Source: Anaerocolumna sedimenticola
Lineage (GTDB): Bacteria > Bacillota > Clostridia > Lachnospirales > Lachnospiraceae
Length of the DNA stretch: 64,000 nt
Assembly: GCF_009931695.1 (NCBI RefSeq)
Contig: NZ_CP048000.1
Coordinates: forward strand, 2,497,501 to 2,561,500
Reading direction: 5' to 3'
The position numbers and the translations under genes were made by a program. Shown here in pieces: positions 17,725-40,588 of this stretch. Position 1 is the first letter of the stretch; each line of letters opens with the position of its first letter. The notes under the pieces were generated by a model. It was not told the origin of the DNA. It did no database searches and saw only the letters and a program-made list of their open reading frames with translations.

Positions 17725-17743
17725 TATATAACAATCTAATATG

Positions 17744-17945
17744 AAAAGGTGCTTGGAGCATTAAACAATGCAGACAAGATAATAGGGAAATGGGTGAAAA
17801 GCCCATACGGTCCCGCCGCTGTAAAGGATGAGTAACAACCAGTCAGTGAAACATTTTTTTACTAAAATGAATTGCTGCAAATCACTGTGATAAACGGGAA
17901 GAGTGGTTGTTTATTATGATACCTGAGTCAGAAGACCTGCCTTTT
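17744..17945 (+). promoter_or_regulatory. Cobalamin (B12) riboswitch
   Basis: The conserved order of cobalamin-riboswitch elements is present: GGTGC near 17748, GGGAAATGGGTGAAAAGCCC, the B12-box-like core CGGTCCCGCCGCTGTAA, and the distal GAGTCAGAAGACCTGCC. Family members bind adenosylcobalamin and shut off downstream genes. An intrinsic terminator at 18029-18090 follows, which argues for transcriptional control. The genes below it make and import B12 precursors, as expected. Confidence 0.96.
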
Positions 17946-18028
17946 GATATGAAGCTATACACAGTTACGAACGATGGCTGTGTGTATTAAGTATAGTTCC
18001 TAATAGAAGCAGGATTATATTTAGTAAG

Positions 18029-37082: not shown

Positions 37083-37606
37083 ATCAGGGTTTAATACATG
37101 TTTACTGCGGAGACGGAAAAGGCAAAACAACCGCAGCAATCGGGCTTGCCATACGCGCTGCCGGCAGCGGGATGAGAGTAGTATTGCTGCAGTTTCTAAA
37201 AGGAAGGCTGGTAAGTGAACTGGAAAGTTTAAAACTGATTCCGGGTATCACCGTAATACGGAATGATAAAGATTTTGGATTTTATCATACTATGTCTTCT
37301 CAGGATAAAATGGATATTACCGCATACCACAATGAAAACTTAAGAAAAGCATTAGATATGGTGGAAGATAACTCCTGCGACCTTTTGATTTTAGATGAAA
37401 TTATGGCTGCATACAAGTATCAGCTGGTAGACTGCCAGGTAATTGATAACCTTTTACAAAACAAAAAGAAAGAACTGGAACTGGTACTTACCGGACGGGA
37501 TCCTGCTCCCTTATTTCTGGAAAAGGCAGATTATATATCGGAAATAAAGAAAATAAAACATCCCTACGATAAAAATATTACAGCCAGAAAGGGAATTGAA
37601 TTATGA
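37079..37606 (+). CDS. cobO: Cob(I)yrinic acid a,c-diamide adenosyltransferase, CobO/BtuR type
   Basis: Adds the upper 5'-deoxyadenosyl ligand from ATP. It has 175 residues with the P-loop [23 protein letters not shown] and [10 protein letters not shown], all typical. It overlaps cbiP by four bases and cbiC by 11 bases. Confidence 0.95.
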
Positions 37607-38228
37607 AAATACAGGCAGATACCTTATCCCCGAGGAAATTGAAAAAAGAAGTTTTGAACTGATAGAAGCGGAATTAAAAACACAACCGGATGAAGAGCTG
37701 AAACCCATTATAAAACGGGTAATCCATACGACGGCAGACTTTGATTATGCAGAAAATCTCTGTTTTTCAGATGAGGTAGTAAAAAAAGCATTGGAAGCGA
37801 TAAAAAACGGTGCGGACATTGTAACAGATACTAATATGGCTAAGGCAGGAATCAATAAAAAATCCCTGGCCAGATTTGGCGGAGAAGTACACTGCTTTAT
37901 GGCTGATGAGGATGTTGCCTTAAAAGCGAAAGAAAGAGGGGTAACAAGAGCAGTTATCAGTATGGAAAAAGCGGCAGAACTAAATAAAAGTATTATATTT
38001 GCCATCGGCAATGCTCCCACTGCACTGATACGTTTACATGAACTCCTACAGTACAGAAAAATAAAACCGGAGCTAATTATTGGAGTTCCGGTGGGATTTG
38101 TTAATGTAGTGGAAGCCAAAGAGTTGATTATGGAAACAGAGGTACCTTATATCGTAGCCAGGGGACGAAAAGGCGGAAGTAATGTAGCGGCATGTATCTG
38201 CAACGCTCTTCTATATATGATACCGTAA
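37596..38228 (+). CDS. cbiC: Cobalt-precorrin-8X methylmutase CbiC
   Basis: Moves the C-11 methyl group to C-12 to give cobyrinate. It has 210 residues with IPEEIEKRSFELIEAEL, the catalytic-His region IKRVIHTTADFDY, and VGFVNVVEAKEL and ARGRKGGSNVAA. The frame is read from TTG 37596 inside the end of cobO; an ATG at 37603 is out of frame and leads to a short peptide. It is the last gene of the B12 operon, with hairpins following. Confidence 0.94.
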   Translation: MNYENTGRYLIPEEIEKRSFELIEAELKTQPDEELKPIIKRVIHTTADFDYAENLCFSDEVVKKALEAIKNGADIVTDTNMAKAGINKKSLARFGGEVHCFMADEDVALKAKERGVTRAVISMEKAAELNKSIIFAIGNAPTALIRLHELLQYRKIKPELIIGVPVGFVNVVEAKELIMETEVPYIVARGRKGGSNVAACICNALLYMIP

Positions 38229-38442: not shown

Positions 38443-38823
38443 TCATTTTTCTCCTTTATCTGATTTTAAATATAACTGAATCATTTGACCTTTAATATAA
38501 TCTTTATATTCATCCGTAAGACGGTTATAATAATTCAGTACATTCTGTTCATCTTTGGTTAAAACAGTACTGTTAGAAGAAGTGTAATCTGAATTTTCTT
38601 TTACTAACTCAAACTTATGTCTGCTGTCTTCATAATCAAACAGATAATCAACGCTGACGCCAAAATATTCGGCCAGTTTAACTAAGATATCAGGATCAGG
38701 AGTGCTATAATTTCGTTCATAATTGGACATAGTTGATTTACTAACCCCAAGGATCTGAGCTAAGTCATTCTGCGGAATATTTTTTTGCTGTCTTAAATTT
38801 CGAATTTTTTTCCCAATATCCAA
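38443..38823 (-). CDS. XRE-family transcriptional regulator
   Basis: DNA-binding repressor-type protein of 126 residues. Residues 1-65 form a Cro/C1 helix-turn-helix (IGKKIRNLRQQKNIPQNDLAQILGVS, given in two parts: IGKKIRNLRQQ and NDLAQILGVSKSTMSNYER), with the linker VDYLFDYEDS typical of small clostridial regulators. The C-terminal 55 residues are polar and unrecognised. The ribosome site is GGGAGTG. It is divergent from the promoter at 38913, whose spacer holds an inverted repeat, and may regulate it. Confidence 0.9.
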   Translation of the reverse strand: MDIGKKIRNLRQQKNIPQNDLAQILGVSKSTMSNYERNYSTPDPDILVKLAEYFGVSVDYLFDYEDSRHKFELVKENSDYTSSNSTVLTKDEQNVLNYYNRLTDEYKDYIKGQMIQLYLKSDKGEK

Positions 38824-38912
38824 GATAACACTCCCTTTTTTAAATAAATACTAACATAAATTATATTTTTTAACATATGAGTACAAAAATACTGGAAATA
38901 ATTTAAATATAT

Positions 38913-38941
38913 TTGACAAATCCAATAAAATTGGATATAAT
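38913..38941 (+). promoter_or_regulatory. Consensus sigma-A promoter with embedded inverted repeat
   Basis: TTGACA (38913-38918) and TATAAT (38936-38941) are separated by exactly 17 bases. The spacer contains ATCCAAT-AAA-ATTGGAT (38920-38936), a perfect 7-base inverted repeat, a likely operator. The divergent XRE protein is the obvious candidate ligand. Confidence 0.85.
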
Positions 38942-38947
38942 ATAGAA

Positions 38948-39107
38948 AAGTGATACAACAATAAAAAACCAGTTAAACCAGTTTGCCATATTAACTTTCA
39001 ATAAAGCATAAGGCTTTTATGAAACAAACATATAAAAATAGAATCCCCTCATATTTTTATATACCTTACGCCTTATGCTTTATTGAAAATTAATATGGTT
39101 ATTTTTT
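38948..39107 (+). ncRNA. Candidate small RNA with 29-bp hairpin
   Basis: Transcription from the promoter at 38913 would give about 160 bases. Arms 38986-39014 and 39070-39098 pair over 29 bases with one mismatch (arm starts CCATATTAACTTTCAATAAA). Inside, TATAAAAATA/TATTTTTATA forms a second stem. TTATTTTTT follows, as in an intrinsic terminator. The only ORF is 24 codons (ATG 39020) with its start buried in the hairpin. Alternatives are a small inverted-repeat mobile element or a leader RNA. Confidence 0.55.
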
Positions 39108-39259: not shown

Positions 39260-39285
39260 ATTATGCAAGCATAATGTGATATAAT
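39260..39285 (+). promoter_or_regulatory. Ferritin promoter (extended -10) with upstream palindrome
   Basis: TGATATAAT (TG at 39277, TATAAT at 39280) is an extended -10. A perfect inverted repeat ATTATGC-AA-GCATAAT (39260-39275) lies directly upstream, where a -35 would be, so it is a candidate regulator site. It is not a standard Fur or PerR box (7-1-7). Confidence 0.6.
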
Positions 39286-39355: not shown

Positions 39356-39868
39356 ATGTTAAATCAAGAAGTTGTAAAATTACTAAACGAACAGATTAAT
39401 AAAGAATTTTATTCAGCCTATCTTTATATGGATATGGCTAATTATTACGCGGATCAAAGTTTAAGTGGATTTGAAAACTGGTTTTTTGTTCAAATGCAGG
39501 AAGAAAGGGATCATGCAATGCTGTTTCGCCAATACCTGCTAAATAATAGTGAAACCGTTTTGCTGGCAGCAATTTCCGCTCCTGATAAAAAATATGAAAA
39601 TTTCCGTGAACCATTAGTATTAGCTCTGGAACATGAAGAGTTTGTGACCGCATCCATAAATACTATATATGAAGCAGCTTATAAAAATAAAGATTTCAGG
39701 ACAATGCAGTTTTTGGATTGGTTTATTAAGGAACAAGGCGAGGAAGAAAAAAATGCAGATGATAATATTAAGAAATATGATTTGTTTGCAGGAGATCCGA
39801 AAGGTTTATACATGTTGGATAATGAACTGAAAGCAAGAATCTATACGGCTCCTTCCCTGGTTTTATAA
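39356..39868 (+). CDS. ftnA: Non-heme ferritin
   Basis: Iron-storage protein forming a 24-mer cage and oxidising Fe(II). In 170 residues the four-helix bundle shows ferroxidase ligands in NKEFYSAYLYMDMANY, FVQMQEERDHAMLF and WFIKEQGEEEKN. The ribosome site is AAAGGATAG. It stands alone, with its own promoter and a terminator at 39937. Confidence 0.95.
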   Translation: MLNQEVVKLLNEQINKEFYSAYLYMDMANYYADQSLSGFENWFFVQMQEERDHAMLFRQYLLNNSETVLLAAISAPDKKYENFREPLVLALEHEEFVTASINTIYEAAYKNKDFRTMQFLDWFIKEQGEEEKNADDNIKKYDLFAGDPKGLYMLDNELKARIYTAPSLVL

Positions 39869-40267: not shown

Positions 40268-40588
40268 CTAAAAAGTTGATTTCTGCATATTAGTATAAAT
40301 TTCATTAAATGTAAAAGTCATATTTTCAAAATCTTCGTTGCTTATTAATTGGCGTTTTGCAGCATATTCGCATAAGAAACAGGTAAATGCGGTAAATTTA
40401 ATATGCTGGATTAAAACGGTAAAGTTACCGGCATCAAAATATTTTTTTATGATTTCATAATTAAATAAAGTAATTTCTATTACAATATCATCTGCTGTCT
40501 CCTCTAAAGTTACAAGTAACTCCTCTAATTTATTTTCAACAAATAATTCTTTTAAATCCGTGTTTCTATTATTCATTTCGTCTGTCAT
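40268..40588 (-). CDS. Unknown small acidic protein
   Basis: A 106-residue product with a good ribosome site (AAAGGA about 7 bases before ATG 40588). The N-terminal half is acidic (LKELFVENKLEELLVTLEET) and predicted helical; the C-terminal half has mixed hydrophobic residues and two Cys (FTCFLCEYAAK). There is no signal peptide and no recognised family. No operon partner is present. Confidence 0.6.
   Translation of the reverse strand: MTDEMNNRNTDLKELFVENKLEELLVTLEETADDIVIEITLFNYEIIKKYFDAGNFTVLIQHIKFTAFTCFLCEYAAKRQLISNEDFENMTFTFNEIYTNMQKSTF

Follow-up and report, generated by a model that had tools for sequence, protein, structure and literature searches.

A conserved C-rich-loop hairpin divergent from XRE regulator genes in Anaerocolumna, a candidate anti-Shine-Dalgarno small RNA

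The locus described here raises the question of what is made from a consensus promoter that stands divergent from an XRE regulator gene and is followed by a long hairpin, and of what such a product might do. With repressors of the XRE/CylR2/SinR type, a small helix-turn-helix regulator is found beside a divergent consensus promoter. The XRE gene of the 64,000-nucleotide stretch of Anaerocolumna sedimenticola DNA analysed here (the window) has the same layout, but the divergent product looks like a hairpin RNA and not like a protein. To our knowledge, few regulatory RNAs have been mapped in Lachnospiraceae, and a search of the available literature found nothing on an Anaerocolumna small RNA, a small RNA divergent from an XRE gene in Clostridium, or an XRE-associated hairpin noncoding RNA in Lachnospiraceae.

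The locus and its predicted RNA

The features of the locus, in window positions, are as follows.

38443..38823 (-): XRE/Cro-C1 helix-turn-helix regulator gene, 126 aa, TTG start (ORF and HTH_3 match, E 9.3e-18)
38890..38897 (unstranded): TACTGGAA, conserved upstream element and candidate XRE site, from an alignment of 11 orthologous regions
38913..38941 (+): promoter of the RNA, TTGACA-N17-TATAAT (in the orthologous regions TTGACA 11/11, TATAAT 9/11, TACAAT 2/11)
38920..38936 (unstranded): spacer palindrome ATCCAAT-AAA-ATTGGAT, candidate operator, unconserved as a palindrome in orthologues
38948..39107 (+): predicted small RNA of about 160 nt, its ends placed from the promoter position and the T-run
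38985..39014 (+): 5' arm of the long stem, with core AATAAAGCATAA (fold and covariation)
39019..39093 (+): ORF of 24 codons within the hairpin, taken to be probably non-coding
39031..39061 (+): apical hairpin, TATAAAAATA-loop-TATTTTTATA (fold)
39045..39051 (+): CCCCTCA, conserved C-rich loop and presumed seed, invariant in 11/11 orthologues
39070..39099 (+): 3' arm of the long stem (fold and covariation)
39100..39107 (+): TATTTTTT, possible termination tract, absent from some relatives
39277..39285 (+): TG-A-TATAAT, candidate extended -10 promoter from which the ferritin gene may be transcribed separately (sequence)
39356..39868 (+): ferritin gene (PF00210, E 1.3e-34), conserved neighbour, probably a separate transcript

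The promoter matches the consensus at 12 of 12 positions and is the sole perfect one in the window, in agreement with a preliminary description of this DNA that had called it the best there. The match alone is not decisive, since 12 of 100 versions of the 64-kb window shuffled by dinucleotides also held at least one perfect promoter. The same description had placed a built-in operator in the spacer. The palindrome does exist there; it is the only exact match to ATCCAATNNNATTGGAT in the 5.5-Mb genome, and its score was reached by 0.85% of shuffled spacers (p 0.0085). In the spacers of the 10 other orthologous promoters, by contrast, a palindrome was weak or absent (shuffle p 0.08 to 1.0), which weakens the operator claim and rules the palindrome out as a conserved operator.

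The XRE gene lies divergent from the RNA promoter, as had been noticed before, and the solved chains that match its protein include the ICEBs1 Xre regulator, CylR2 and SinR. The protein is presumed to repress the RNA promoter, a role suggested by the divergent arrangement and by TGGA/TCCA half-sites around the promoter. Since the spacer palindrome is weak in orthologues, the main binding of XRE may take place further upstream, at TACTGGAA...TTCCAATA. The palindrome TACTGGAA-TTA-TTCCAATA, of which TACTGGAA is one half, occurs in four relatives (G014a, G012a, G011a and G009).

In the predicted transcript, positions 38985-39014 pair with 39070-39099 to give a long stem of 29 pairs with one C.A mismatch (38995/39089), and the T-run follows directly, so that the stem was found just as first described. 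A second stem nested within it (39031-39040/39052-39061) closes the loop that holds CCCCTCA. The minimum free energy of the hairpin is -44.4 kcal/mol (z -8.5), and none of 200 shuffles was equally stable. The preliminary description would have counted occurrence of the hairpin at many unrelated places against its reading; in the window genome (a 5.5-Mb contig) the hairpin is present in a single copy. Rfam gave nothing at gathering score, either at this hairpin or at the hairpins of loci L047-L056 and L104-L111. With regard to a prophage or plasmid origin, a DNA match to phage or plasmid was not found at the hairpin, and the XRE protein has two weak relatives in viral contigs.

Elsewhere in the window, a cobalamin riboswitch (RF00174, 90.1 bits) was found at 17730-17958 (+), and cobalamin-type genes extend beyond it as far as CbiC at 37596-38228. 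An ORF of 106 aa at 40268-40588 (-) gave no Pfam or NCBIfam match and is kept in genomes G007 (82%) and G008 (47%).

Conservation and covariation of the hairpin

A DNA search with the window locus over 61 genomes gave matches in six, all within Anaerocolumna, and the XRE locus is also present in the records of Anaerocolumna sp. MB42-C2 and AGMB13025. At the protein level, 15 close homologues of the XRE protein (at least 59% identity, the window's own included) were identified in 10 of the 15 genomes of the genus, and the divergent region was read at all 15. At 11 of them, TTGACA-N17-TATAAT or TACAAT is followed by a long hairpin; the structured small RNA with a consensus promoter that had been proposed from the window thus recurs, with compensatory changes, next to the XRE genes of relatives. 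At the other four (G008b, G014b, G012b and G011b) the XRE gene was seen with neither promoter nor hairpin. The last three, loci L057, L058 and L059, keep TACTGGAA-type sites and are perhaps decayed modules. Beyond the XRE gene at L052, L053, L054 and L056 (the G014/G012/G011/G009 clade) lies an ORF of 76-77 aa, which we take to resemble Spo0E-type phosphatases.

The loop CCCCTCA is the same in all 11 orthologues while its flanks vary, and these loci were reached via the XRE protein and not via the loop sequence. A T-run is absent directly after the hairpins of several relatives. When the hairpins of other contexts (see below) are included, 20 of 21 related hairpins hold CCCC and 17 hold the longer CCCCTC; outside the XRE orthologues this count is not fully independent, because the covariance models used also score the loop. 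In the shuffled centres of the 20 CCCC-bearing hairpins, CCCC appeared in 0.35 to 17%. In low-GC Gram-positives, small RNAs of the C-rich-loop (UCCC) kind are marked by a conserved, unpaired C-rich motif in a hairpin loop, an own promoter and a selected RNA structure, and the comparison finds these at the loci studied here.

Double-sided changes were observed at 11 of 35 pairs among the 11 orthologues, where four of five measures were reached by none of 500 shuffles and the fifth, further pair types, by 442. A second alignment (A3) comprised 16 hairpins from three contexts out of 19, the near-identical rows G012a, G011a and G011c having been dropped; it predates the finding of G011e and G012e. 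In it, compensatory double changes occur at 19 of 28 stem pairs and 92.4% of cells pair, and each of the five measures was beyond the reach of all 500 shuffles. Slid controls did not exceed 7 such pairs and 46% pairing. Shuffled and slid controls overstate the significance, as the sequences are related and the structure was taken from the data, and it is the size of the gap that counts. The stem ends differ between hairpins yet remain paired, and the stem core AATAARGCATA is largely retained among hairpins of different loci.

It was also considered which strand carries the structure. At CCCC-bearing loci for which both strands were listed, the CCCC strand always outscored the opposite one, partly by construction, since the covariance model was built from the CCCC strand; in G012e, which lacks CCCC, the two strands scored alike (42.6 and 41.3). 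Stem cells hold 19 G.U against 9 A.C, along with 22 other mismatches. An RNA of the CCCC strand is moderately favoured over a DNA cruciform, the nine A.C cells being the reason why the evidence is no more than moderate. Comparison between relatives shows the long hairpin to be under selection, with the loop CCCCUC(A) kept while the flanks drift.

Related hairpins and control XRE genes

A covariance model was built from the 11 orthologues, and further hairpins were found with it in the genus. Besides the 11 beside the window-type XRE (context a), four are divergent from a TPR-type HTH_3 regulator (context c1, in G012, G014, G011 and G009); one of the four proteins was scanned and gave TPR matches and a sub-threshold match to RNPP_C (19.5 bits, cut-off 26.5). 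Another four lie near large serine recombinases (context c2), one of which was scanned (Recombinase, E 6.9e-26). At three of these an XRE gene starts 520-598 bases off on the other side, and at the fourth, G008d, no XRE was found beside the hairpin among the listed ORFs of at least 80 aa. A fifth recombinase-side hairpin, G012e, has a stem without CCCC. Finally, the locus of hairpin G011e (context e) encodes a LytTR response regulator together with a histidine kinase of the GHKL type and a peptidase-C39 ABC exporter. No genome was found to hold more than three CCCC-bearing copies.

Two further observations concern these loci. At L138 (G011:C72), a short ORF (MIITNQVINSISNMEELTQVELEKLEG...) precedes the hairpin and adjoins the peptidase-C39 exporter; it is possibly a leader-type secreted peptide. 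At L107, L108 and L109, in three genomes, the interval between XRE and recombinase is GC-rich and carries repeated CGCCAYGACCACC-like strings about 100-500 bases before the hairpin. This region may be a further structured RNA; at L108 it gave only sub-threshold Rfam matches (pemK 24.8 bits, dinG 22.8).

In the G014/G012/G011/G009 clade, context (a) and (c1) copies score 27-48 against each other, and the clade's (a) copies score 19.5-29.5 against that of the window. G009a is an exception, being as near to the window copy (29.5) as it is to G009d (27). As copies of the two contexts are mostly closer within the clade, this suggests that the body of the RNA gene was copied among differently regulated loci.

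The restriction to the genus rests on two covariance searches with strict filters (R1, 299 genomes; R2, 397 genomes) and on a pattern search of 397 genomes, and with such filters distant relatives could be missed. R1 gave no match in the other 298 of the 299 family genomes. An R1 match in G005 lay inside a gene, presumably one resembling agrB, and was dropped as chance. R2 gave matches in four genomes outside the genus at E 0.0016-0.03, which were inspected and set aside; such matches are expected by chance because the E-values are per genome. Five of the 15 genus genomes had no R2 match, and three of these five are 63-81% complete. Weak R2 matches at G012:C3:1306920, G014:C1:2189662 and G006:C10:30132, as well as a pattern match in G356, were rejected as hairpins without CCCC; G009:C1:695497 is a weak R2 match (E 0.065). 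Locus L237, in another genus of the family, gave a weak covariance match (E 0.027) at what was judged by eye to be a candidate leader hairpin before a GntR-like gene; it carries AATACTTTGAGGGGAGTATT, the complement of the C-loop, which may be chance.

As controls, 900 bases on the divergent side were scored for 43 XRE genes. The three XRE-bearing (c2) loci served as positives; of the remaining 40 genes, 24 belong to the genus (four of them forming a second XRE group) and 16 to other genera. The three positives were recovered with stem scores of 22.1-27.7, and none of the 40 others had a comparable stem bearing a CCCC loop. In control L030, CCCCC stands in a 91-base loop closed by a weak stem (score 15.1); L046 forms a stem of 20 that scores 21.8 and lacks CCCC. 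With the second group omitted, CCCCTCA was found at 40-450 bases divergent in none of 36 XREs, one of which has CCCCTCT, and a near-consensus divergent promoter was present at 12 of the 36. Hence, consensus promoters on the divergent side of XRE genes are common, and the C-loop RNA is not.

The second XRE group comprises four loci (G011, G009, G014 and G012) with XREs of 32-34% identity; it counts as two lineages, since three of the four loci are near-identical. Its divergent promoters are TTGACA-N17-TAAAAT in three loci and TATAAT in G009, and the spacer palindrome ATGACT-N3-AGTCAT is kept in all four (shuffle p 0.002-0.039). CCCCTCAAA is invariant downstream, and the predicted RNA carries CCCCUCAAA. 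A 3' hairpin followed by a T-run resembles an intrinsic terminator, and folding gave z -5.6 for G009 (0/200 shuffles as good) and a moderately stable z -2.8 for G014 (2/200). The long AATAARGCATA stem was not seen in the RNA of this group; XRE, promoter and seed are common to both RNAs. GTAGGAG, a Shine-Dalgarno-like string, is also invariant, so that a short coding sequence is possible in this group.

Proposed function and alternative explanations

The explanation towards which we lean, with modest confidence, is that of a repressible regulatory small RNA, controlled by XRE, which would use its C-rich loop to pair, without Hfq, with Shine-Dalgarno regions rich in G. XRE would bind the TGGA/TCCA half-sites around the promoter, shutting off its own gene and the RNA, and would let go upon a signal. 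The stable, Hfq-independent RNA would then expose its C-rich loop to the G-rich Shine-Dalgarno regions of target mRNAs and so block ribosome binding. Hfq (TIGR02383) was not found in the window genome by a search that was positive in 5 of 14 control genomes.

There are published precedents for such a mode of action among low-GC bacteria. Unpaired UCCC motifs of LhrC bind Shine-Dalgarno sites and block translation, RNAIII, RsaE, SprD and FsrA being cited alongside it, and LhrC acts on lapB without Hfq (PMC4132741). RsaA binds at the Shine-Dalgarno through UCCC/C-rich sequence (PMC3961350), and RNAIII acts on coa mRNA by a C-rich motif at the Shine-Dalgarno (PMC2837412). By analogy, the loop CCCCUCA(A) fits the UCCC anti-Shine-Dalgarno kind. 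Listeria LhrC, which acts at an mRNA without Hfq as is proposed here, resembles the present RNAs in being a multicopy, short (111-114 nt) RNA with UCCC motifs in its loops; its five almost identical copies are under LisRK, whereas the Anaerocolumna copies differ and adjoin different regulators (PMC4132741). The C-rich loops of S. aureus RNAIII and RsaA likewise mask Shine-Dalgarno sites (PMC2837412, PMC3961350). RNAIII is a quorum-sensing effector, and one Anaerocolumna copy adjoins a LytTR locus; RNAIII has many hairpins, whereas the Anaerocolumna RNA has a single long stem, which reaches about 31 bp at most. The Streptococcus csRNAs are likewise a related set of small RNAs under transcriptional control, but all five are under CiaR, unlike the Anaerocolumna copies.

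Targets in trans were sought in eight genomes as TTGAGGGG-N2-12-ATG. The pattern was not enriched, with 115 matches where its reversed form had 134. Among 40 sites inspected (17 in the window genome, 16 in G007, 6 in G010 and 1 in G008), no orthologous target was common to the window genome and G007. The one orthologous pair (G008/G010), chosen for identical matched strings, is by eye a probable transporter permease.

Several other explanations were weighed against an RNA acting in trans. A double-negative switch, in which the loop would keep the divergent XRE mRNA from being translated, is improbable: when 18 modules were compared with 252 predicted ribosome-site regions, complementarity between the loop and the Shine-Dalgarno region of XRE was present in G006a, G006b, G010 and G001 (rank fractions 0.004-0.052) but not in the window, G007, G014a, G012a, G011a, G008a and G009a (0.29-0.67). 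The window itself ranks at an unremarkable 0.60, and such pairing was rejected as the general mechanism. The hairpin might instead form the leader of a long ferritin mRNA under XRE control, for 9 of the 11 context (a) loci have ferritin downstream (with a second XRE in between in G008a) and several hairpins have no direct T-run. Against this, the two copies in G006 (G006a and G006b) have no ferritin within about 3 kb, ferritin was not recognised by eye in the other contexts, and the candidate extended -10 lies upstream of the ferritin gene; we give this explanation the same low probability. No likelier is a MITE-like or recombinase-associated mobile element with incidental XRE neighbours. Related hairpins do occur at unrelated loci, five of them beside large serine recombinases, with the stem core largely kept between them. 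Yet the low copy number is not that of a dispersed repeat, promoter, XRE and loop are retained at 11 orthologous loci, and the stem ends change with their pairing kept.

Somewhat less probable still is a decoy or aptamer that binds XRE or another protein via its stem; conservation of the core in sequence, beyond pairing, among paralogues would fit it, but hairpins with the same core adjoin unrelated regulators. A small peptide gene of 24 codons, offered as an alternative in the preliminary description, is the least credible and is very unlikely. The window ORF has an ATG with AAGG upstream, and in G001 the same hairpin frame is open for 34 codons and ends in a similar tail (YFYI...LCFIE); that common tail, however, is what a conserved 3' arm would spell in this frame, and in the nearest relative, G007 (81% identical), the ORF stops after 6 codons. 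As judged by eye, 20 hairpin regions hold no common peptide, and no common small ORF of the kind expected of a type I toxin-antitoxin system was found in these regions with 60 bases upstream. The ORF is probably non-coding.

For the repressible anti-Shine-Dalgarno RNA, the wider distribution adds a further aspect. Related RNA genes would have been copied beside a TPR-type HTH protein, other XREs and a LytTR two-component locus, and several signals may therefore feed one kind of anti-Shine-Dalgarno RNA. Only tentatively do we extend this to a genus-wide anti-Shine-Dalgarno network without Hfq, in which one CCCCUC(A) hairpin effector would have been rewired to unrelated sensors (XRE, TPR-type HTH, a LytTR peptide-signalling locus), together with the differently folded RNA of the second XRE group with its CCCCUCAAA seed. 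The window locus offers a compact and testable case of an XRE gene whose neighbour resembles an RNA and not a protein. Paralogous RNAs with one seed and different sensors may show how regulatory RNAs get rewired within a genus and how C-rich RNAs work without Hfq.
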